20,252 bases of DNA from a virus: IMG/VR virus record IMGVR_UViG_3300005530_000088, positions 1 to 20,252 of that record; one strand, written 5' to 3'. The notes under the pieces were generated by a model that did not search any database, was not told the DNA's origin, and saw only the letters and a program-made list of their open reading frames with translations. Each line of letters opens with the position of its first letter. Position 1 is the stretch's first letter. Below, piece after piece: positions 3,094 through 15,195 of this stretch. Position numbers and translations under genes: made by a program.

Positions 3094-4806
3094 TCACACA
3101 GTCTCCAAAATCTTGCTAAAGGCTTTCTTCTTCTCAAACTTTATCACCGTGTCGAACTTATCGGATATCGCATCGGTGTTGTGACTGATGATCAGGATAT
3201 TGGTATCCGTCATTGCATTGATGATGTTCATGAAGTCGTCGCGGCCATCCTGATCGAGCGCACTATCCAAAATTTCATCGAAGATCAGCAAATTGGAATG
3301 GGCACTCTGACGGATGCGGGCGATGTTGCGCCATGCAAACATGATCGCCAGATTGATACGCTTCTTTTCACCTTCCGAATGTGAGTAGTAGGAGTTTTTG
3401 TCGTTGTTGATGCCGCCAATGACTTCCTCGAAATTTTCATCAAGATTGAAGTCCACAAATAGATTCATTTGCCCGAGATATTGTTTGATGATCTTGTTCA
3501 TGATCGGAATGTATTGACGGATGATCAGAGTCTTGATGCCGCCGTCCTTGAGCAACGTCGAGGCCACGTTGAGAACTTCACGCTCGTCCAGCATCGCAGC
3601 TTTGCGGGTATTTGCATCGGCCAGTTGTTTCTTAAAGTCTTCATGCAGAGATGTGTCGATATTTACATATTTTTCCTTGAGACCGCCTAAGTCGATTTCG
3701 TAAGCTTCTTTGAGGGTTTTGATAGAGTTCAGTTCAAGAGCTACCTTGGCTCTCCATGTCTTGTAATTTTTAATAGTCGTGATAATTTTCTCACGTTCAT
3801 CCAATTTTGTCTGGGTTGTCTTGAGCTTCTTTTCGCATTTTTCTATGATATTAACTGCCGTATCGATCATCTGATTGCGGGTCGCAATCTCGCCATTCTT
3901 GAAGTCTTCCGATATATTTTGGGCACATGTTGGGCATTGACAAGCGTCCATAAAGAACGCTCGTTCCTTCTCCCATTTGGCAATCAACTTCTTTTGCTTA
4001 TTCGTGTGTTTGATGCATTTGTCACGAATGCCAATATATTGGTCGAAATGCAGAAGCTGTTCCTCAGTGGCTTCAATCGATTTGTCAATGTCAGTGATGG
4101 CTTCTTTTTCAATCCATGCGCGATCTTCTTGCTGTTTGATCTTGGCCTTGAGTTCGTTAGCACGATCCTTGATATCGGTCTTGATTTCCTTCAAGTGGCT
4201 TTCGTGAAGTTCAAGGTTCGATGACACCAATCGAATGGTCTGCTCGATTGCGTTCAGTTCGTCCTTGTTGGTCGTGACACGTTCTTTCAGGATATTGTTC
4301 ATGGCACTGAACACTTGTAGGTCCAGCAAGTCCTCGACAACAGTGCGCCGTTGCAGGGCAGGTAGTTCCATGAACGGCACATAAGTCGCCGTGCCCAGAA
4401 TGATGATCTGGCAGAAGCTTTTGTAATTGATCTTGAGGATATTGTTTTCGAGATACGCCTGATAATCCTTCGACATGCTATCCTGACGGATCAGTTCACC
4501 GTTCTCGAAGATTTCAAAGACATTGGGTTTGATGCCGCGACGGATCAGGAAGTGGCGCTTACCGATATCGAATTCGATTTCGACAAGGGTATTCTTGTCG
4601 GTCAAGCGGTTGGTCAGTGCTGGTTTGTTGATGTTACGATAGGGCTTGCCGAACAATGCAAACGTTATCGCATCGATCAATACCGATTTGCCACTTCCTG
4701 ATTTTCCTACGATCAGTGTCTTGTTGTATTGGTCGAGGCGAACTTCTGTCGTATAATTGCCATACGACATGAAGTTAGCCCAAGATATTCTATTGAATGT
4801 AATCAA
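3094..4806 (-). CDS. 46: gp46, Rad50/SbcC-like recombination nuclease subunit
   Basis: A 570-residue SMC-type ATPase that pairs with gp47 to resect double-strand ends for recombination-dependent replication. Visible parts in order: Walker A GKSGSGKS (34-41); family-specific LRxxIKPNVFEI-type and SFxQIIILGTATYVPFM segments; coiled coil (about 165-280); zinc hook CPTC (291-294); second coiled coil (about 310-415); ABC signature SHSEGEKKRINLA (475-487); Walker B LLIFDE (506-511); and the switch SH (541-542). Length is close to T4 gp46. The start appears to be TTG at 4806, overlapping the ATP-grasp stop as TTGA; the next ATG is 12 residues in and would remove the first strand. Its first 52 codons are duplicated at 5588-5776, separated from it by the ATP-grasp gene. 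Confidence 0.95.
   Translation of the reverse strand: MITFNRISWANFMSYGNYTTEVRLDQYNKTLIVGKSGSGKSVLIDAITFALFGKPYRNINKPALTNRLTDKNTLVEIEFDIGKRHFLIRRGIKPNVFEIFENGELIRQDSMSKDYQAYLENNILKINYKSFCQIIILGTATYVPFMELPALQRRTVVEDLLDLQVFSAMNNILKERVTTNKDELNAIEQTIRLVSSNLELHESHLKEIKTDIKDRANELKAKIKQQEDRAWIEKEAITDIDKSIEATEEQLLHFDQYIGIRDKCIKHTNKQKKLIAKWEKERAFFMDACQCPTCAQNISEDFKNGEIATRNQMIDTAVNIIEKCEKKLKTTQTKLDEREKIITTIKNYKTWRAKVALELNSIKTLKEAYEIDLGGLKEKYVNIDTSLHEDFKKQLADANTRKAAMLDEREVLNVASTLLKDGGIKTLIIRQYIPIMNKIIKQYLGQMNLFVDFNLDENFEEVIGGINNDKNSYYSHSEGEKKRINLAIMFAWRNIARIRQSAHSNLLIFDEILDSALDQDGRDDFMNIINAMTDTNILIISHNTDAISDKFDTVIKFEKKKAFSKILETV
4653..4715. repeat. 63-bp direct repeat, copy in intact gp46
   Basis: An exact copy of 5623-5685, 970 bases away in the same orientation. 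It covers the Walker A coding region of gp46. Similarity continues to 4806 with scattered differences. Confidence 0.95.
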
Positions 4807-5588
4807 AATGCGTCTTCTATCGCCATGATAAGTTTTTGGATATTGGCTCGGTAGAGACCAGAACTATTGATGTTATTGATTTCGACAATCTTGTAACCAT
4901 TCGGTGTATCAGCTATGTCGAGACAGTAAGTATTGATATCATGCATTTGTTCAACGCGTTGTAGTGCGTAATTTCGTGCTAAGAGGGGCACAACACCTGC
5001 ATAGGAGACTTGATCGCCAAGCTTATAGGGAGAGCACGTAATCATACGGCCATTGACGATCCAAAAGCGATACTCAGCATAGATAGTCTTTGGTTTAGCG
5101 ATGACTAATTTACTTGTCCATTCAGCGCCGCCGCCAGTTAGATCACCATCACTAATTATTACCCTTGCCCATTCCAGAAGTTCATTGCGAGACATAATTG
5201 AGCCTTTAATGAATTTAGAATCATCTGTTGGCCGAATGAAGTTTGTCTCATAGAGAGGAATGTCATCATTATAGATATCTACAAAAGTGGCTATCGCAGC
5301 ATCATGATTGAGCATATGATTACGCCAGACACAACGCTGAAACAGAAAGTCATAGTTGTCTAACGGAATGCACCCTGGATACCAACCATTATTGCGGCAA
5401 GTTTTCATCATCGAAAGCGAACCGTAGCACCAGACTTTCTGGTCGCCAAGATCGGGCTCGGGAATGAGTTCGCCTGAGAAGGGCACGACCTTATGGATCG
5501 AGTGGCGAATTTTCAATCGCTCTAACTGAGCGATGACTTCGTTCCATTGTTCTTCATGGCCAACGTTTTCTTGGACTAACCAGTGCAT
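4803..5588 (-). CDS. ATP-grasp protein (R2K/DUF4343-like)
   Basis: A 261-residue ATP-grasp enzyme. The C-terminal half carries the family signature: NFIRPTDDSKFIKGSI (about 116-131), IYAEYRFWIVNGRMITCSPYK (about 174-194) and YCLDIADTPNGYKIVEINNINSSGLY (about 222-247). The acidic DIxxTxxGxKIxEINxxNSSG segment supplies the metal ligands. R2K-clade ATP-grasp proteins occur in many phages and form amide-type bonds on peptides or proteins; the substrate is not known. The gene is not part of the T4 gp47-gp46 module. It lies between a truncated copy of the gp46 5' end (stop TGA at 5590-5588, one base shared with its ATG) and the intact gp46 (TTGA overlap at its end), so it probably arrived with the duplication. 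Confidence 0.8.
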   Translation of the reverse strand: MHWLVQENVGHEEQWNEVIAQLERLKIRHSIHKVVPFSGELIPEPDLGDQKVWCYGSLSMMKTCRNNGWYPGCIPLDNYDFLFQRCVWRNHMLNHDAAIATFVDIYNDDIPLYETNFIRPTDDSKFIKGSIMSRNELLEWARVIISDGDLTGGGAEWTSKLVIAKPKTIYAEYRFWIVNGRMITCSPYKLGDQVSYAGVVPLLARNYALQRVEQMHDINTYCLDIADTPNGYKIVEINNINSSGLYRANIQKLIMAIEDAF

Positions 5589-5776
5589 CAGAGTTGAATC
5601 TTCGTTAGTTCATCGGTGCCATACAATGCAAACGTTATCGCATCGATCAATACCGATTTGCCACTTCCTGATTTTCCTACGATCAATGTCTTGTTAAATT
5701 GGTCGAGGCGAACTTCTGTTGGATAGTTTCCATACGACATGAAATTCGACCATCTAATGGTGTTAAAAGTTATCAA
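5588..5776 (-). pseudogene. Truncated duplicate of the gp46 5' end
   Basis: A 62-residue frame whose first 54 residues are nearly the same as the N-terminus of the intact gp46 at 4806. It includes the same TTG start, the FMSYGNY segment and the complete Walker A GKSGSGKS. Only about six of the first 53 residues differ. After FALYG the sequence leaves gp46 and ends within eight residues (TDELTKIQL). At DNA level 63 bases are identical to 4653-4715, and the remaining bases toward the start are more diverged. It begins in a TTGA overlap with the GIY-YIG stop and ends at the ATP-grasp start. It cannot be a working ATPase. It is either a dead remnant or a leader that keeps translational coupling going. 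Confidence 0.85.
5623..5685. repeat. 63-bp direct repeat, copy in gp46 fragment
   Basis: Identical to 4653-4715. It flanks the ATP-grasp gene together with that copy, so recombination between the two would delete the gene and restore a single gp46. Confidence 0.95.
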
Positions 5777-6471
5777 TTTTTCAACCGTTTTTCACTATTT
5801 CTCAATTTAGCTTCTTCCGACCATTTTATGCCTTTTCGAGAGCTTGATTTTCTTGTTTTGGCAGCTTCACTTAATTTTTTTCTGTGCTCTATTGAAAATA
5901 CCCTGCCTACGTTAGAACTTCGTAATTTTATTTTGGTTTCTTCCGTAAGTGTTTTACCAAAACGTGGATGTTGTGAAATGTCATAACTTTCACACTTTGA
6001 CCAATGGTTTTCTCGTAATTTTTGTTTGTGTTCTTCTGTAAATTCCCTACTAATTCCCTTCAATTTATCGCTTATTTTTTGTCGGGTCTCTGATGAATGA
6101 GACTTTCCTAAAAATGGGTGCGTATATCCATTTTTAGTCCAATGGTTTTCTCGTAATTTTTGTTTGTGTTCTTCTGTTAGATGTTGACCTTTAGAAGTCC
6201 AATTTGATTTTGACGTTGTAAATCTCAAATTGTAATAACATTGTTTTCGTTTTACACGTTTCAACCATTTTTCTTCGATTTCTAAAAGGGTGTTTCGGTC
6301 TGTAATTACACGTTCAACGATACGACGTTTGAAATCTTGCGGTCGTCTTCGGTAGGCGTCTCTCATGCGATTGGATGAACAAATATATCCATCATCCTCA
6401 GTTCCCCAATGAGAACCTATGTAATACATCTTTCGCTTGCGATCATACCAAATATAGACAAATCCAGACAT
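5773..6471 (-). CDS. GIY-YIG homing endonuclease with NUMOD3 repeats
   Basis: A 232-residue free-standing endonuclease of the Seg type. The nuclease domain is at the N-terminus: VYIWYDRKRKMYYIGS (5-20, the GIY and YIG strands), GTEDDGYICSS, a conserved Glu in LLEIEEKWL and YYNLR. The rest is a chain of NUMOD3-like DNA-binding helices: LTEEHKQKLRENHW (98-111), HSSETRQKISDKLKG (125-139), FTEEHKQKLRENHW (144-157), LTEETKIKLR and FSIEHRKKLSEAAK. Two of these modules are identical because of a 39-bp direct repeat. It lies between gp47 and the gp46 fragment, overlapping the latter's TTG start. Its own start region combines a late-promoter box with a hairpin covering the ribosome binding site, an arrangement known for T4 homing endonucleases. 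Confidence 0.9.
   Translation of the reverse strand: MSGFVYIWYDRKRKMYYIGSHWGTEDDGYICSSNRMRDAYRRRPQDFKRRIVERVITDRNTLLEIEEKWLKRVKRKQCYYNLRFTTSKSNWTSKGQHLTEEHKQKLRENHWTKNGYTHPFLGKSHSSETRQKISDKLKGISREFTEEHKQKLRENHWSKCESYDISQHPRFGKTLTEETKIKLRSSNVGRVFSIEHRKKLSEAAKTRKSSSRKGIKWSEEAKLRNSEKRLKN
6001..6039. repeat. 39-bp direct repeat, first copy (NUMOD3 module)
   Basis: Identical to 6139-6177 at a distance of 138 bases. It encodes the repeated TEEHKQKLRENHW module of the GIY-YIG endonuclease. Perfect DNA identity suggests recent internal duplication or conversion. Confidence 0.95.
6139..6177. repeat. 39-bp direct repeat, second copy (NUMOD3 module)
   Basis: Identical to 6001-6039 and in the same reading frame, within the same endonuclease gene. 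Confidence 0.95.
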
Positions 6472-6476
6472 TTAAT

Positions 6477-6499
6477 ACTCCAGTAACAATTACTGGAGT
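6477..6499 (-). promoter_or_regulatory. Hairpin hiding the ribosome binding site of the GIY-YIG gene
   Basis: A perfect 10-bp inverted repeat (6477-6486 and 6490-6499) with a 3-base loop. In the minus-strand RNA the 3' arm ends in CTGGAGT, which holds the GGAG Shine-Dalgarno sequence; the ATG follows five bases later at 6471. Readthrough RNA from gp47 would fold and close the site. A late transcript starting a few bases after the CTAAATA box at 6500-6506 would lack much of the 5' arm and leave the site open. The hairpin and its position are seen directly; the regulation is inferred from the I-TevI type of control. Confidence 0.75.
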
Positions 6500-6506
6500 T
6501 ATTTAG
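6500..6506 (-). promoter_or_regulatory. Late promoter box (CTAAATA) for the GIY-YIG gene
   Basis: CTAAATA on the minus strand, directly adjoining the hairpin and overlapping the gp47 stop codon. The same heptamer precedes gp22, gp23, the exported HExxH gene and def, so it is probably the gp55-dependent late -10 box of this phage (T4 uses TATAAATA). Confidence 0.6.
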
Positions 6507-8719
6507 GCAACATCGAGTGCGGATTTATATAATTCTTGCAGAAGTGCGTTGATCTTCGGTTTCATTTCGTCCTTGACGCCAATAGTATCACAATACTTCG
6601 CGAGCAGGCCAATGGTGTCTTCAACTTGTAGGAGTTCAGCTTCATCGCCATCAAAGGCGAGGTGCCCAAGGTCTTCAATGACCTGGACCGACAACGGCTC
6701 GACGGCATCGAGCTTGTCGCGGAACGTCTCAAACCAGAAGGCGTTGTCTTTGTTTCGGACGACAACCCTGACGAATGACTTGCGATACTTTTCGAAGTCA
6801 ACGTTGAGGACTTGATCCATGGACCTGTCCTTGTCGTCATACTCAATCCTATAGTATAGACTATATGGGTTCGGAATGAAAGTTAAATTGTGGGTTTCCA
6901 GGTCAAAAATATGGAAACCTTTAACATCGCCGTAGTCTCCCCACTCCATCTGGAAAGGACAGTTATGAACTACAGAATTATTGACTACAAAATTATGAGT
7001 GTCTTCTACTTCAATATCGTATAATTGACTTTCTTGTCCTGGTTTATCCCAATAGGTAAAATCAGTTATCAACTGTGCTGAGTATTCAAGTCTGTCGCTA
7101 TCCAAAGAAATTTTTGGAATATGTCTATATTGTTTGGGCAACTTTATCACAAGTCTCCCATTATAGTCATATTCTTCCATGCAATGGGGAACATAAGGCG
7201 CGATCAATCCGAAAAAGATATCAAAATTCTCCTTACCATATCCAGATAGATAGAATCTGTTATTTCTCTTGTCTTCCACCATAGTAAGGTAGATATTGTA
7301 TTTTTTAGCAAAAAATTTCTGAATCAGCACATTATCATCATACGAAAACCCTTGGGTATTGAGAGAAACACCACTTAAATACCTTTTACCATTCTTTGTT
7401 TGCCAGAGAACATTACCATCATCCAAATACCAAAACGCCAACGCAATATCATCTACCAATTCGAGAATATTCTTTACGCTTTTCTTCCCTTCTGGATATC
7501 CTATATCTCTCAAATATCCGAATTGAGGGGTTGACGTAATATTCCCCCTATAAACATCAATCACCTCTTTGTTATACCCACATTTCCTGTGCGATTTACT
7601 GATATTCCCATTCATAATTGAGCATTTATATGCCACGTAATCTTTCTGAAACTTGCTATGAGTAAAATGCAAAGTATTTTTAGTTATAGTAGCATCACCT
7701 AATAGTGTTCCAATTGCTACAGATATCTGTGTCGCATTTAACAACTTATTTTCTTTACGGATTGATACATCTTTTTCGGATGGATAACGCACCAAATACT
7801 TATTTTTTATAAGTCTCGCTTCTTCATACCTCCTTAGAGAAGGTTTCAAAATGTCGTCAACTATCATGCACGGATGATCTTCTGTGCAAATCAATTGCTT
7901 CTTACGGCTATTGTTGGATGAAAGAGATATCCATTTCTTAGTTCCATTATTAGGTTGAACTTTATGGGATATCACATTTTTCCATTGAAATTTGCCCTTA
8001 GAATCTAATGATAGGACTTTTCCAGAATACTTGTTGTCAACGATCCATTTTATGGATTTCAGTCCGTCTTCGGTTCTTACCATTCCCTTTCTGTGAATAC
8101 AGCCAAGATAATGGATGTTGTTGTAGTCTGATTTGTGATGAAAATGTCCTGTCAAGACAGTTCGGAACTTTTCGAACTTTTCAGGACGTAGTGCGTCTTC
8201 GCGGCTATAGTAGGTGCCACGATGCACCTGAAAGCCATACAGTTCAAGATGCCCCATGCAGATATTGGCCTCAGAGTGCGCCAAAGCAGTCATTGTGGCC
8301 GTTTCATTGTCTCGGCATATCCATGGGCACAGGAACACAGGAACGCCGTCTATGACCGTCGTAGTGGCTTTGGTATACAGTTTAAAGTCAACATAGCGGT
8401 CCTGTAGCAACTCTTGCAGGGCGCTTAGTTGATTAGTGTCCTTGAAATACACGTCATGATTCCCTGCCAGCACATGAATATTCTGGACATGTTGCTGGAG
8501 TGGTTCAAGGAAGTCTGTTCTCAGACGATTGAGTGTGTTATAATTGATGAACTTACGGCGATCTACAAAATCACCCAGATGCACGACAGTCTTGATCTTA
8601 TTCTGTTTAATGAACGGGAAGAAGATGTCGTCGTAGAAGGCTTTTTGGTGATCGAGGATGGCAGGATTATCATTACGGATACCAGCGTGGGTATCGGAAA
8701 TTACGCATATTTTAGTCAT
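6503..8719 (-). CDS. 47: gp47, Mre11/SbcD-like nuclease subunit, interrupted by an intein
   Basis: A 738-residue precursor; removal of a 380-residue intein leaves 358 residues, close to T4 gp47. The calcineurin-like phosphoesterase motifs are complete in the N-extein: DTH (9-11), GDFVDRR (49-55), GNHD (86-89), GHLE (156-159) and GHFH (191-194). The intein sits after HYLG (203-206), where the family has the YxGSP strand following the last metal motif, and the C-extein resumes with CPFQMEWGDYGD. The protein is the Mn-dependent nuclease partner of gp46. The start is ATG at 8719. A sigma70-like promoter lies 28 bases upstream across the gp55 stop codon. Activity depends on intein splicing, because the insertion lies in the phosphoesterase domain. 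Confidence 0.93.
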   Translation of the reverse strand: MTKICVISDTHAGIRNDNPAILDHQKAFYDDIFFPFIKQNKIKTVVHLGDFVDRRKFINYNTLNRLRTDFLEPLQQHVQNIHVLAGNHDVYFKDTNQLSALQELLQDRYVDFKLYTKATTTVIDGVPVFLCPWICRDNETATMTALAHSEANICMGHLELYGFQVHRGTYYSREDALRPEKFEKFRTVLTGHFHHKSDYNNIHYLGCIHRKGMVRTEDGLKSIKWIVDNKYSGKVLSLDSKGKFQWKNVISHKVQPNNGTKKWISLSSNNSRKKQLICTEDHPCMIVDDILKPSLRRYEEARLIKNKYLVRYPSEKDVSIRKENKLLNATQISVAIGTLLGDATITKNTLHFTHSKFQKDYVAYKCSIMNGNISKSHRKCGYNKEVIDVYRGNITSTPQFGYLRDIGYPEGKKSVKNILELVDDIALAFWYLDDGNVLWQTKNGKRYLSGVSLNTQGFSYDDNVLIQKFFAKKYNIYLTMVEDKRNNRFYLSGYGKENFDIFFGLIAPYVPHCMEEYDYNGRLVIKLPKQYRHIPKISLDSDRLEYSAQLITDFTYWDKPGQESQLYDIEVEDTHNFVVNNSVVHNCPFQMEWGDYGDVKGFHIFDLETHNLTFIPNPYSLYYRIEYDDKDRSMDQVLNVDFEKYRKSFVRVVVRNKDNAFWFETFRDKLDAVEPLSVQVIEDLGHLAFDGDEAELLQVEDTIGLLAKYCDTIGVKDEMKPKINALLQELYKSALDVA
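6962..8101 (-). mobile_element. Intein with LAGLIDADG endonuclease inside gp47
   Basis: A 380-residue in-frame insertion, precursor residues 207-586. It starts with Cys207 (CIHRKG), the splicing nucleophile. Block B has the TxxH motif (CTEDHP, 278-283). Two LAGLIDADG-type helices follow: VAIGTLLGDA (334-343) and LAFWYLDDG (427-435). Block F reads YDIEVEDTHNFVV, and the element ends in VVHN (583-586) followed by Cys+1 of the C-extein. All residues needed for class 1 splicing are present, and both endonuclease acidic positions appear kept (GDA, DDG), so it may still home. The DNA is more AT-rich than the gp47 exteins, which fits horizontal arrival. Confidence 0.93.
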
Positions 8720-12171: not shown

Positions 12172-12683
12172 GTGGTTATGTTGTATTTTGTGAATTTAAA
12201 TGTAGCAGAAGATGCTATTTCAGGCAGACCGTCTTCTGTTGTTGACAGTGTGAAGCCACTCAATGCTATGGGGAAGGCGTTTTTATACAGTATTTCTATG
12301 TTTGTATTCTTGATGTTCGTAGTAATGAGCACTGAGATATCCGAATATAGTCCATCGCCAGGGATCGTCTGTTTGGCAAGGTTGGCATACTGGTCATAGT
12401 TGTCGGGGTATCCGAGCCCGCAAATCCAATTGTAGAGTTCGACATAGTTTCGCAGGTCTTCGTCTACCTTGAAATTCAAAACCAAGTCATCATAGACGAT
12501 GTGGTCCCCAGGAACAGGAACAGTGATAAATGGATTGGGTTGCGCGGCTGGCGGTAATTGCAGGGCAGGTATATTTACATTCTGGGTAAAGAATGTCGTC
12601 GTCGGCAACTTCTTCACGACGAATACAAATCCATCAGGTTGCAGGTAGTTGATATTGAGTGGCGTGCGATCAATAGCACTCAT
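12156..12683 (-). CDS. 3: gp3-like tail tube tip/tail completion protein
   Basis: A 175-residue protein, nearly the length of T4 gp3 (176), which caps the head-proximal end of the tail tube. The region QNVNIPALQLPPAAQPNPF (34-52), then VPVPGDHIVYDDLVLNFKVDEDLRNYVELYNWICGLGYP (about 55-93), mirrors T4 gp3 (VPIPGI, YDPLIVRFIVDEELKSWIGMYEWM). The C-terminal LYKNAFPIALSGFTLSTTEDG and ASATFKFTKYNI fit the same tube-like fold. Position also agrees: in many T4-like marine phages gp3 lies between gp23 and uvsY. The start overlaps the stop of the GIY-YIG gene by ATGA, so an inserted endonuclease gene now directly precedes it. The exact number (gp3 rather than another tube-like protein) is inferred. 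Confidence 0.72.
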   Translation of the reverse strand: MSAIDRTPLNINYLQPDGFVFVVKKLPTTTFFTQNVNIPALQLPPAAQPNPFITVPVPGDHIVYDDLVLNFKVDEDLRNYVELYNWICGLGYPDNYDQYANLAKQTIPGDGLYSDISVLITTNIKNTNIEILYKNAFPIALSGFTLSTTEDGLPEIASSATFKFTKYNITTLPSP

Positions 12684-13288
12684 GACTTTATTTTACCCCG
12701 TCCAAGTATGAAACCTGTTGGTTCGGTTCCCTCAATAAGCATTTTAGTTTCATTAGTTAGGGGGTGTCTATACCACTTTTTATATCTATTATACGAAGGT
12801 TTCCCGCGATGTGGTGTTCCATATTTAGCTTTCTTTTCTTCAATAGTCATAGCTACATATCTGGCATTTATTCCTTTTTTCATGTTTTTGATATGTGTTT
12901 TGGATAACGTTCTTCCAATAAGAGATTTTTTGATACTCAGTTTATGCTGTTCACTAAGAGGCTTCCCTAATATTCCTTGTCTGGACTTTTCTATTGATTC
13001 TATGGTTCTACCTTTACAGTAAAACTTACCATCACCATTATGTTGATTATAGAACAACTTATGCTTTGCAGCATTTACTTTTTTTAGCAACACACTTTCC
13101 ATTCTAATCATATCTTCATATTTCCCGATTGCTACTATCGTTTTTTTGAAATCGTCTGGTCGAAGCTTAATTTGTTCCATTACTAACTTACTTGAACAAA
13201 TATATCCATCAGTAGTATGGCCTTTATGGGAACCAATATACAATTTTTGTGATATGGTATCTTCTATAATGTAAATGTATCCAGTCAT
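12680..13288 (-). CDS. GIY-YIG homing endonuclease (second copy type)
   Basis: A 202-residue free-standing endonuclease. The N-terminal GIY-YIG domain reads YIYIIEDTISQKLYIGSHKG (4-23), DGYICSSKLVMEQI, a conserved Glu in MIRMESVLLKK and LFYNQHNG. NUMOD3-like helices follow (TIESIEKSRQGILG, LSEQHKLSIKKSLIG, LSKTHIKNMKKG), then a basic tail with GTPHRGKPSYNRYKKWYRH. It shares YIGSHxGxxxDGYICSS with the other GIY-YIG protein at 5773-6471 but is otherwise well diverged, so the two are separate arrivals rather than a recent duplication. It is wedged between the exported HExxH gene (TAATG overlap) and gp3 (ATGA overlap). No hairpin is seen at its start. Confidence 0.88.
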   Translation of the reverse strand: MTGYIYIIEDTISQKLYIGSHKGHTTDGYICSSKLVMEQIKLRPDDFKKTIVAIGKYEDMIRMESVLLKKVNAAKHKLFYNQHNGDGKFYCKGRTIESIEKSRQGILGKPLSEQHKLSIKKSLIGRTLSKTHIKNMKKGINARYVAMTIEEKKAKYGTPHRGKPSYNRYKKWYRHPLTNETKMLIEGTEPTGFILGRGKIKS

Positions 13289-13758: not shown

Positions 13759-15195
13759 ATGACTGACCAAGAAATACTCGTTTTGTATAAAAATAACTCT
13801 ATTTCCCTTCTTGAATTACGGAAGTTGACAGGACTGTCTGATTACAAAATTCATCAAATAGCCAAAAGGCATGGGATCGAGCTTCGTGGTGCAAAGCGCA
13901 CCGTGACCTTAGTAAAGATGTGCCCTGATGCTGATAAGTTACGCCGCCTTGCGGTCACTAATATGACTAACAAAGAAATTGCTGCCGAATTTTGTGTATC
14001 TCCAAGTTTGTTGGATAAGTGGTTCAAGAGTTTTGATATTGATCGTCGCTTTCGAAACAATGAAGGCAATCGCCCAGCAAGAGAAGAATTGCAGCAACGA
14101 TATGAGGAAGGACGCTCATGCCCTGATCTTGCCTTGCACTATAAGGTGACGGCAAAGACTATTAGTAATTGGCTTGAGTATTATGGTATTGAAAAACGCA
14201 CATTACTCCAATCCAGACATACCTCTCAATACAAAACCAAATACAAAGAGACGTGCCAGAAGATATATGGCGCAGATAACCCATTTCAAAACAAAGAAGT
14301 TCAGGAAAGAGTAAGAAAATCCTTTGTCAGAAATGGTGATACCAAACGTTCCAAAGGTGAGGAAGATTGCATTAAAGCCCTGAATGAGTTTGCCGATTTA
14401 CATCTTGAACCATCAAGACAATTCCTGAACAACGGAAAAGAGCTTGATGGTATTGACTTAGAAAAACGTGTGGCCATCGAGTTCTGTGGCCTTTTCTGGC
14501 ATTCTGAAAAAGGAGGTAAAACACGCGATTATCATTATGACAAATGGAAACAATGCAAAGAACAAGGCATAAAACTATTTACCATTTTTGAGGACGAATG
14601 GGCAATAAATCGAGATAAAATTTGTCGATATATTTACATGAATACAGGTAATTCTCGCAGATATATTCAAGCTCGGAAGACAGAATTTGTTGAAGTCCCT
14701 TATCATATAGCCCGCCAATTTTGTATCGACACTCACATGCAAAACGCTGCGAACTTTCGCAGTGCATATGGGTTGGTCTACGACAGCGATCTTGTCTCCT
14801 TGATGACGTTTGGGATGCACCATCGAAATAATAAAAGTATAGTCATGAATAGATATTGTGGAAAGTTTGATGTGACTATCATTGGTGGACCTTCAAAACT
14901 AATGACCAACGTATCAAAACTGGTCGGTGAAGATATTGTAACTTGGTCAGATAACAGGTGGTCTATGGGGAATGTTTATGCCAAGATGGGGTGTGAATTT
15001 GAGACCGAATTACCGCCTGATTATTATTGGACAGATTTTGTAAGAAAGTATAACAAACAGACACGCCGAAAACAAAATACAGGTCAGCCAACAGAATTGA
15101 CTGAGAAAGAATACAATGAAGGATTAGGTATGAGTAGAATATGGGACTGTGGCAAAATACGTTGGGTTTATAGAAACAAAAAAGCACCCGAGTGA
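13759..15195 (+). CDS. Vsr/EDxHD-type homing endonuclease with three HTH modules
   Basis: A 478-residue protein on the strand opposite to all its neighbours. The N-terminal third has three helix-turn-helix-like modules: SLLELRKLTGLSDYKIHQIA (17-36), MTNKEIAAEFCVSPSLLDKW (69-88) and CPDLALHYKVTAKTISNWL (121-139). A linker GADNPFQNKEVQERVRKSF (171-189), of a type common before such nucleases, follows. The nuclease core has SKGEEDCIKAL (198-207), LDGIDLEKRVAIEFCGLFWHSE (229-250) and YHYDKWKQCKEQGIKLFTIFEDEW (258-281), matching the Vsr-like PD-(D/E)XK layout with Asp230/233, Glu241 and His259. A C-terminal domain of about 190 residues is uncharacterised. It sits tail to tail with gp23 and has its own sigma70-like promoter, as expected for a free-standing homing gene. 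Confidence 0.85.
   Translation: MTDQEILVLYKNNSISLLELRKLTGLSDYKIHQIAKRHGIELRGAKRTVTLVKMCPDADKLRRLAVTNMTNKEIAAEFCVSPSLLDKWFKSFDIDRRFRNNEGNRPAREELQQRYEEGRSCPDLALHYKVTAKTISNWLEYYGIEKRTLLQSRHTSQYKTKYKETCQKIYGADNPFQNKEVQERVRKSFVRNGDTKRSKGEEDCIKALNEFADLHLEPSRQFLNNGKELDGIDLEKRVAIEFCGLFWHSEKGGKTRDYHYDKWKQCKEQGIKLFTIFEDEWAINRDKICRYIYMNTGNSRRYIQARKTEFVEVPYHIARQFCIDTHMQNAANFRSAYGLVYDSDLVSLMTFGMHHRNNKSIVMNRYCGKFDVTIIGGPSKLMTNVSKLVGEDIVTWSDNRWSMGNVYAKMGCEFETELPPDYYWTDFVRKYNKQTRRKQNTGQPTELTEKEYNEGLGMSRIWDCGKIRWVYRNKKAPE

Follow-up and report, generated by a model that had tools for sequence, protein, structure and literature searches.

Intronless homing in T4-like phages, represented by the seg and mob genes, is characterized by free-standing GIY-YIG genes lodged between phage genes, leaders that combine a late promoter with a hairpin at the ribosome-binding site (RBS), co-conversion of flanking DNA and essential recombination genes as neighbours (PMC2988022). 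T4 endonucleases are known to be controlled by hairpins and late promoters, and I-TevI represses its own synthesis through an operator (PMC2988022). During T4 homing a break is repaired from the genome that bears the homing endonuclease gene (HEG), and if only one side has homology, the opposite side may be joined illegitimately. Such one-sided, microhomology-joined repair has been described for T4 intron homing, with one-sided homology, resection and an illegitimate junction (1999 work, as described in PMC2988022). Fungal mitochondrial mobile ORFs (Allomyces atp6; Glomus atp6, atp9, cox2 and nad3) pair an endonuclease gene with a duplicated host-gene end: the two copies have differing histories, and the HEG-linked copy completes the gene while the native end is displaced (PMC3630166). 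In the HEG-bounded exchange regions of phages, a nuclease gene borders a recombined segment within a core-gene neighbourhood (PMC10448857). ATP-grasp enzymes of the R2K clade are predicted peptide ligases that occur sporadically in phages (PMC4431377).

The locus described here shares traits with all of these. The window, that is, the whole stretch of DNA analysed, is a 20,252-nucleotide (20-kb) piece of a T4-like phage from IMG/VR, recognized by the marker genes gp23, UvsW and gp46/47. On its minus strand an intein-containing gp47 is followed by a GIY-YIG HEG, a truncated gp46 start, an R2K ATP-grasp gene and an intact gp46. The traits of intronless homing listed above are all present or proposed, homing itself being putative; unlike the seg and mob loci, the window has, between the HEG and the neighbouring gene, a bystander gene and a shortened copy of that neighbour. 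One-sided homology, resection and illegitimate joining were experimental in T4 intron homing, whereas here they are proposed from a natural junction. As in the fungal ORFs, the two copies appear to differ in history, the first 57 nt of the fragment being as diverged from the intact copy as from the nearest relative. However, the window duplicates a 5' end, an unrelated gene separates the copies, and the HEG-linked copy is dead, ending at codon 53, while intact gp46 uses the other copy. The HEG stands, like those of exchange regions, at the edge of a putatively recombined segment beside core genes, but no recurring island or cargo was detected around it. The event is probably of a kind already known from T4 homing, and by analogy it resembles the fungal duplicated gene ends in mirror image, without their rescue function. 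No description of a free-standing HEG with a dead gp46 start beside a resident accessory gene was found in the literature searched.

Gene order and mobile elements in the window

Gene assignments are based on Pfam and PHROGs matches (Table 1). From the HEG onward, neighbouring genes are joined by stop/start overlaps: TTGA between HEG and fragment, which places the truncated gp46 directly behind the endonuclease, as the first-pass annotation had it; TGATG between fragment and ATP-grasp; and TTGA again between ATP-grasp and intact gp46. The intein-splicing match in gp47 lies under the curated Pfam cut-off. No DNA-level relatives of the window were found among GenBank phages.

Table 1. Features of the gp47-gp46 region, in window coordinates
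Feature	Position	Strand	Evidence
gp47, SbcD-like nuclease, split by an intein with LAGLIDADG domain	6503..8719	-	Pfam Metallophos + LAGLIDADG_2 + Intein_splicing
HEG leader	6477..6519	-	fold z=-3.07; leader shared with most related HEGs, which lie at unrelated sites
Free-standing GIY-YIG homing endonuclease (HEG)	5773..6471	-	NUMOD3 2.8e-12; phrog_314 homing endonuclease 5.5e-21
gp46 5' fragment (codons 1-53), including Walker A and the TTG start	5618..5776	-	53 aa at 86.8% amino-acid identity with the N-terminus of intact gp46; codon alignment
Non-gp46 tail of the fragment ORF (TDELTKIQL-stop), putative recombination junction	5588..5617	-	codon alignment
63-nt tract in the fragment, identical to 4653-4715	5623..5685	-	repeat search, codon alignment
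63-nt tract within intact gp46, identical to 5623-5685	4653..4715	-	repeat search, codon alignment
R2K-clade ATP-grasp gene, 261 aa	4803..5588	-	PF14243 2.4e-17; PF18299 5.7e-11; homologue in same position in L002
Intact gp46, SbcC-like subunit, 570 aa	3094..4806	-	SMC_N 4.3e-18; 69% identity to L002 gp46

Four mobile-nuclease genes are accommodated within the 20 kb. The gp47 intein is inserted before CPFQMEW, after a conserved YLG segment, and the relatives include intein-free gp47. A second, distant GIY-YIG HEG (29% identical; 12680-13288, minus strand) overlaps with its stop the start of the tail-tube gene; neither a leader hairpin nor a neighbour-gene repeat was found there. A 478-aa homing-endonuclease-like protein (phrog_3339; 13759-15195, plus strand) is encoded on the opposite strand and adjoins the gp23 gene.

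The gp47-gp46 gap is itself variable: it measures at most 60 bp in 69 of 110 loci, reaches about 700 bp in others (L004, L030-L046, L049, L068, L079, L097-L105 and others among the variable cases) and extends to 1.1 kb in L002, the relative introduced below. An extra gene occupies the gap in L004 and in phiM12.

Two gp46 starts with a mosaic relationship

The two gp46 starts form a direct repeat of 160 nt (4647-4806 and 5617-5776) in the same orientation, with 86% identity and a spacing of 970; blastn aligns 136 nt at 91% (E 5e-50), far beyond chance. Both copies begin with TTG. A same-orientation duplication of the first 52 codons had been proposed earlier; orientation and start codons stand, while the homology reaches codon 53. 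The identical 63-nt tracts lie exactly where they had been placed. The fragment ORF comprises 62 aa (5588-5776), its final 9 codons not belonging to gp46, and probably has no protein function. The idea that its tail is the end of a second gp47 copy gained no support: most gp47 C-termini have LY-x-E-A close to their end, and the tail carries LY 12 positions from its end, without EA.

Differences between the copies (22 of 160 positions) are distributed very unevenly: 17 fall in nt 1-57, confirming the reported divergence of the start-proximal bases, 3 in nt 58-153 and 2 in nt 154-159 (heterogeneity, Fisher P=4e-6; contrast to intact gp46 against L002, P=0.019). In the first interval each copy also differs from L002 at 18 positions. 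In the second L002 differs by 17-18, against the 3 that separate the window copies, and codons 20-51 are identical except for isolated codon differences at 27 and 31. The histories were compared by such difference counts, as 53 codons and one close relative are too few for a tree. Clustering of the differences at the 5' end and near-identity at the 3' end point to two gp46 lineages and a subsequent local conversion or template switch. Separate histories with subsequent sequence exchange are therefore supported, in agreement with the earlier proposal of recombination or conversion between a resident and an incoming gp46: conversion would later have homogenized a foreign start, or two templates would have been used in copying it. 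As 11 of the 17 differences in codons 2-19 are synonymous and 6 nonsynonymous, the fragment start appears to have diverged as part of a working gene elsewhere.

The Walker A DNA was considered as a specially conserved HEG target and rejected: the 27 nt shared with L002 are one of several such runs, and shuffles yield a run of at least 9 codons in 45% of cases.

The endonuclease gene and its leader

The N-terminus of the HEG is of the GFVYIWY...YYIGSH type, common to 11 viral loci and to the annotated HEGs of phiM12 and phiN3. NUMOD3 scores above its cut-off, giving the protein the domain content of a homing endonuclease; the Pfam GIY-YIG model yields no match at 0.001. The HEG is a gene in its own right outside introns and inteins, and its relatives lie at unrelated sites with different neighbours (L006-L016, L148-L151); T4-like phages and others harbour related HEGs at numerous sites. 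In L007, L010, L011, L014, L015 and L151 (phiM7) the gene that follows the HEG is complete, and the HEG stop overlaps its start or almost reaches it. As the window HEG abuts the fragment just as related HEGs abut complete genes, this arrangement suggests that a donor phage had the HEG directly before a complete gp46.

The leader consists of a CACTCG box (6514-6519), a TAAATA late-promoter-like element (6500-6505) that overlaps the gp47 stop, and a hairpin (6477-6499) enclosing a GGAG RBS. CACTCG lies upstream of 9 of 16 HEGs in exact form, against an average of 0.1 in shuffles. The combination of CACTCG, CTAAATA and, in most cases, an RBS-enclosing hairpin is portable among HEGs at unrelated sites (window, L006-L016, L148-L151). 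By analogy with I-TevI, CACTCG could be a candidate operator; it could also be part of the insertion site. Because the leader crosses the last codons and stop of gp47, the left edge of the insert would lie at or within the gp47 3' end, and the gp47 C-terminus of the window differs from that of L002. The C-terminal exon of gp47 is 80-83% identical to L002.

The nearest relative and the ATP-grasp gene

The nearest relative found, L002 (IMGVR_UViG_3300037419_000589), has the order gp47-orf90-ATP-grasp-gp46, with neither HEG nor fragment; orf90 is a 90-aa ORF (L002 439-711) without a PHROG match. A gp47-ATP-grasp-gp46 genome free of the fragment, anticipated by the first-pass annotation as an intermediate, thus exists. 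The window gene belongs to the same sequence family as the R2K enzymes (PMC4431377), passing the cut-offs of PF14243 (64.1 bits; 26.3) and PF18299 (42.9; 26.2). It is the sister of the L002 ATP-grasp (support 100/99, tree of 18), with only 43-46% identity between the two. Linkage to gp46 sets this pair apart from other R2K ATP-grasps among the loci seen: at the other loci of the family that were retrieved, gp46 was not detected in the 4-6 kb of flanking sequence covered.

An ATP-grasp gene before gp46 is accordingly the shared and probably the older order, a polarity drawn from the single relative record L002. Since this order is common to both phages and the ATP-grasps are sisters, the insert relative to L002 is more likely the HEG with the gp46 fragment, and not the ATP-grasp. 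The earlier suggestion that repair of an endonuclease cut captured the ATP-grasp gene is thereby divided: the HEG persists as the likely agent, and the ATP-grasp, whose sister is already in place in L002, is not supported as the cargo.

Origin of the junction

We propose, with a probability of about 0.5, that HEG spread, by one-sided homing with illegitimate joining, left the 53 gp46 codons behind as a dead scar. The arrangement and the mosaic are observed; the break, the donor and the order of events are inferred. The recipient would have had the order gp47-ATP-grasp-gp46, as L002 indicates, and the donor, a related phage, gp47-HEG-gp46. A break near the end of the recipient gp47 would have been repaired with the HEG phage as template: after invasion by the gp47 end, synthesis would copy the gp47 tail, the HEG leader and the HEG and proceed into gp46. 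As the ATP-grasp gene stood between gp47 and gp46 in the recipient, the other side would have offered no matching sequence, so that copying would stop at about codon 53 and be joined illegitimately just upstream of ATP-grasp, at 5588-5617. Later gene conversion with intact gp46 would have homogenized about codons 20-51.

Several points count against one-sided homing. The gp47-HEG-gp46 order expected of the donor, which had also been predicted earlier, was not found among the viral contigs and genomes scanned; polarity comes from one relative; orf90 is absent from the window; and no microhomology could be demonstrated at the junction from the window sequence. Comparable scars are also lacking elsewhere. 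None of 110 gp47-gp46 junction loci (some from the same contigs and not all independent) has a second gp46 start, and none of the 11 related HEG loci has a flanking-gene fragment, which speaks against a recurring form of the cargo-insertion unit envisaged at first; the HEG family as a habitual carrier of flanking-gene pieces was likewise rejected. Homing scars, if made, would then be rare or quickly deleted, and the structure looks like a one-off.

The same product would arise if ATP-grasp and a gp46 5' end had entered a gp47-HEG-gp46 phage, by homologous exchange in gp46 codons 20-51 at one end and an illegitimate join behind codon 53 at the other. The fragment would then be the native start, and the incoming start would have restored the gene. 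This reading, that of the first-pass annotation, mirrors the C-terminal duplications of the fungal mobile ORFs and has in them a precedent (PMC3630166); the near-identical tract sits at the expected exchange site, and L002 carries ATP-grasp directly before gp46. Yet it requires that ATP-grasp was previously absent here, where the closest relative has its sister, and, ATP-grasp not being an endonuclease, the element would lack a driver of its own, so that we regard it as possible but doubtful. Fewest steps are demanded by a single unequal crossover between gp47-HEG-gp46, at about codon 53 of gp46, and gp47-ATP-grasp-gp46, just before ATP-grasp, after which the two gp46 starts would have undergone gene conversion; no endonuclease cut is required. 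Duplication and both gene orders are explained, and from sequence alone the outcome is indistinguishable from that of one-sided homing; the presence of a HEG at the site is, however, left out of account, and we consider this route unlikely. One-sided homing is ranked above both.

Descent of the repeat from gp46 itself, by simple tandem duplication and decay of the upstream copy, would account for its direct orientation, but decay should be even and mostly nonsynonymous; the 5'-clustered, mostly synonymous differences beside a nearly identical 3' part make it barely credible, and the earlier judgement that a recent tandem duplication fits poorly is upheld. A chimera of two co-occurring strains, conceivable for a 20-kb metagenome contig known here without reads, is improbable in view of the differences between the copies and of the single linear path through the repeat graph: with two entries to and two exits from the 63-nt repeat, that path is the one observed, and the alternative needs a free 970-bp circle. 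Frames and stop/start overlaps are moreover intact across the junction.

Implications

The scar should be open to deletion by homologous recombination between the repeat copies, and ATP-grasp would be lost with it. The two gp46 starts might even serve as recombination arms: looping-out of 970 bp would remove ATP-grasp and re-create gp47-HEG-gp46, and the gene could also be regained. We hold this for a long shot; if true, ATP-grasp would be an optional gene, the phage population would switch between having and lacking it, and the adjacent HEG would influence this switching.

In this junction T4-like phages offer a natural candidate for the outcome of one-sided, illegitimate homing, and scar, bystander gene and insert-free near relative together allow comparison: a mechanism of a known kind is probably visible here in unusually readable form. 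The gp46 and gp47 genes, for which a role in T4 homing has been called possible in the literature, are in this phage themselves beset by mobile elements. The locus suggests that such scars are rarely kept, and that the spread of HEGs can leave partial gene duplications where the recipient holds an accessory gene at the site.
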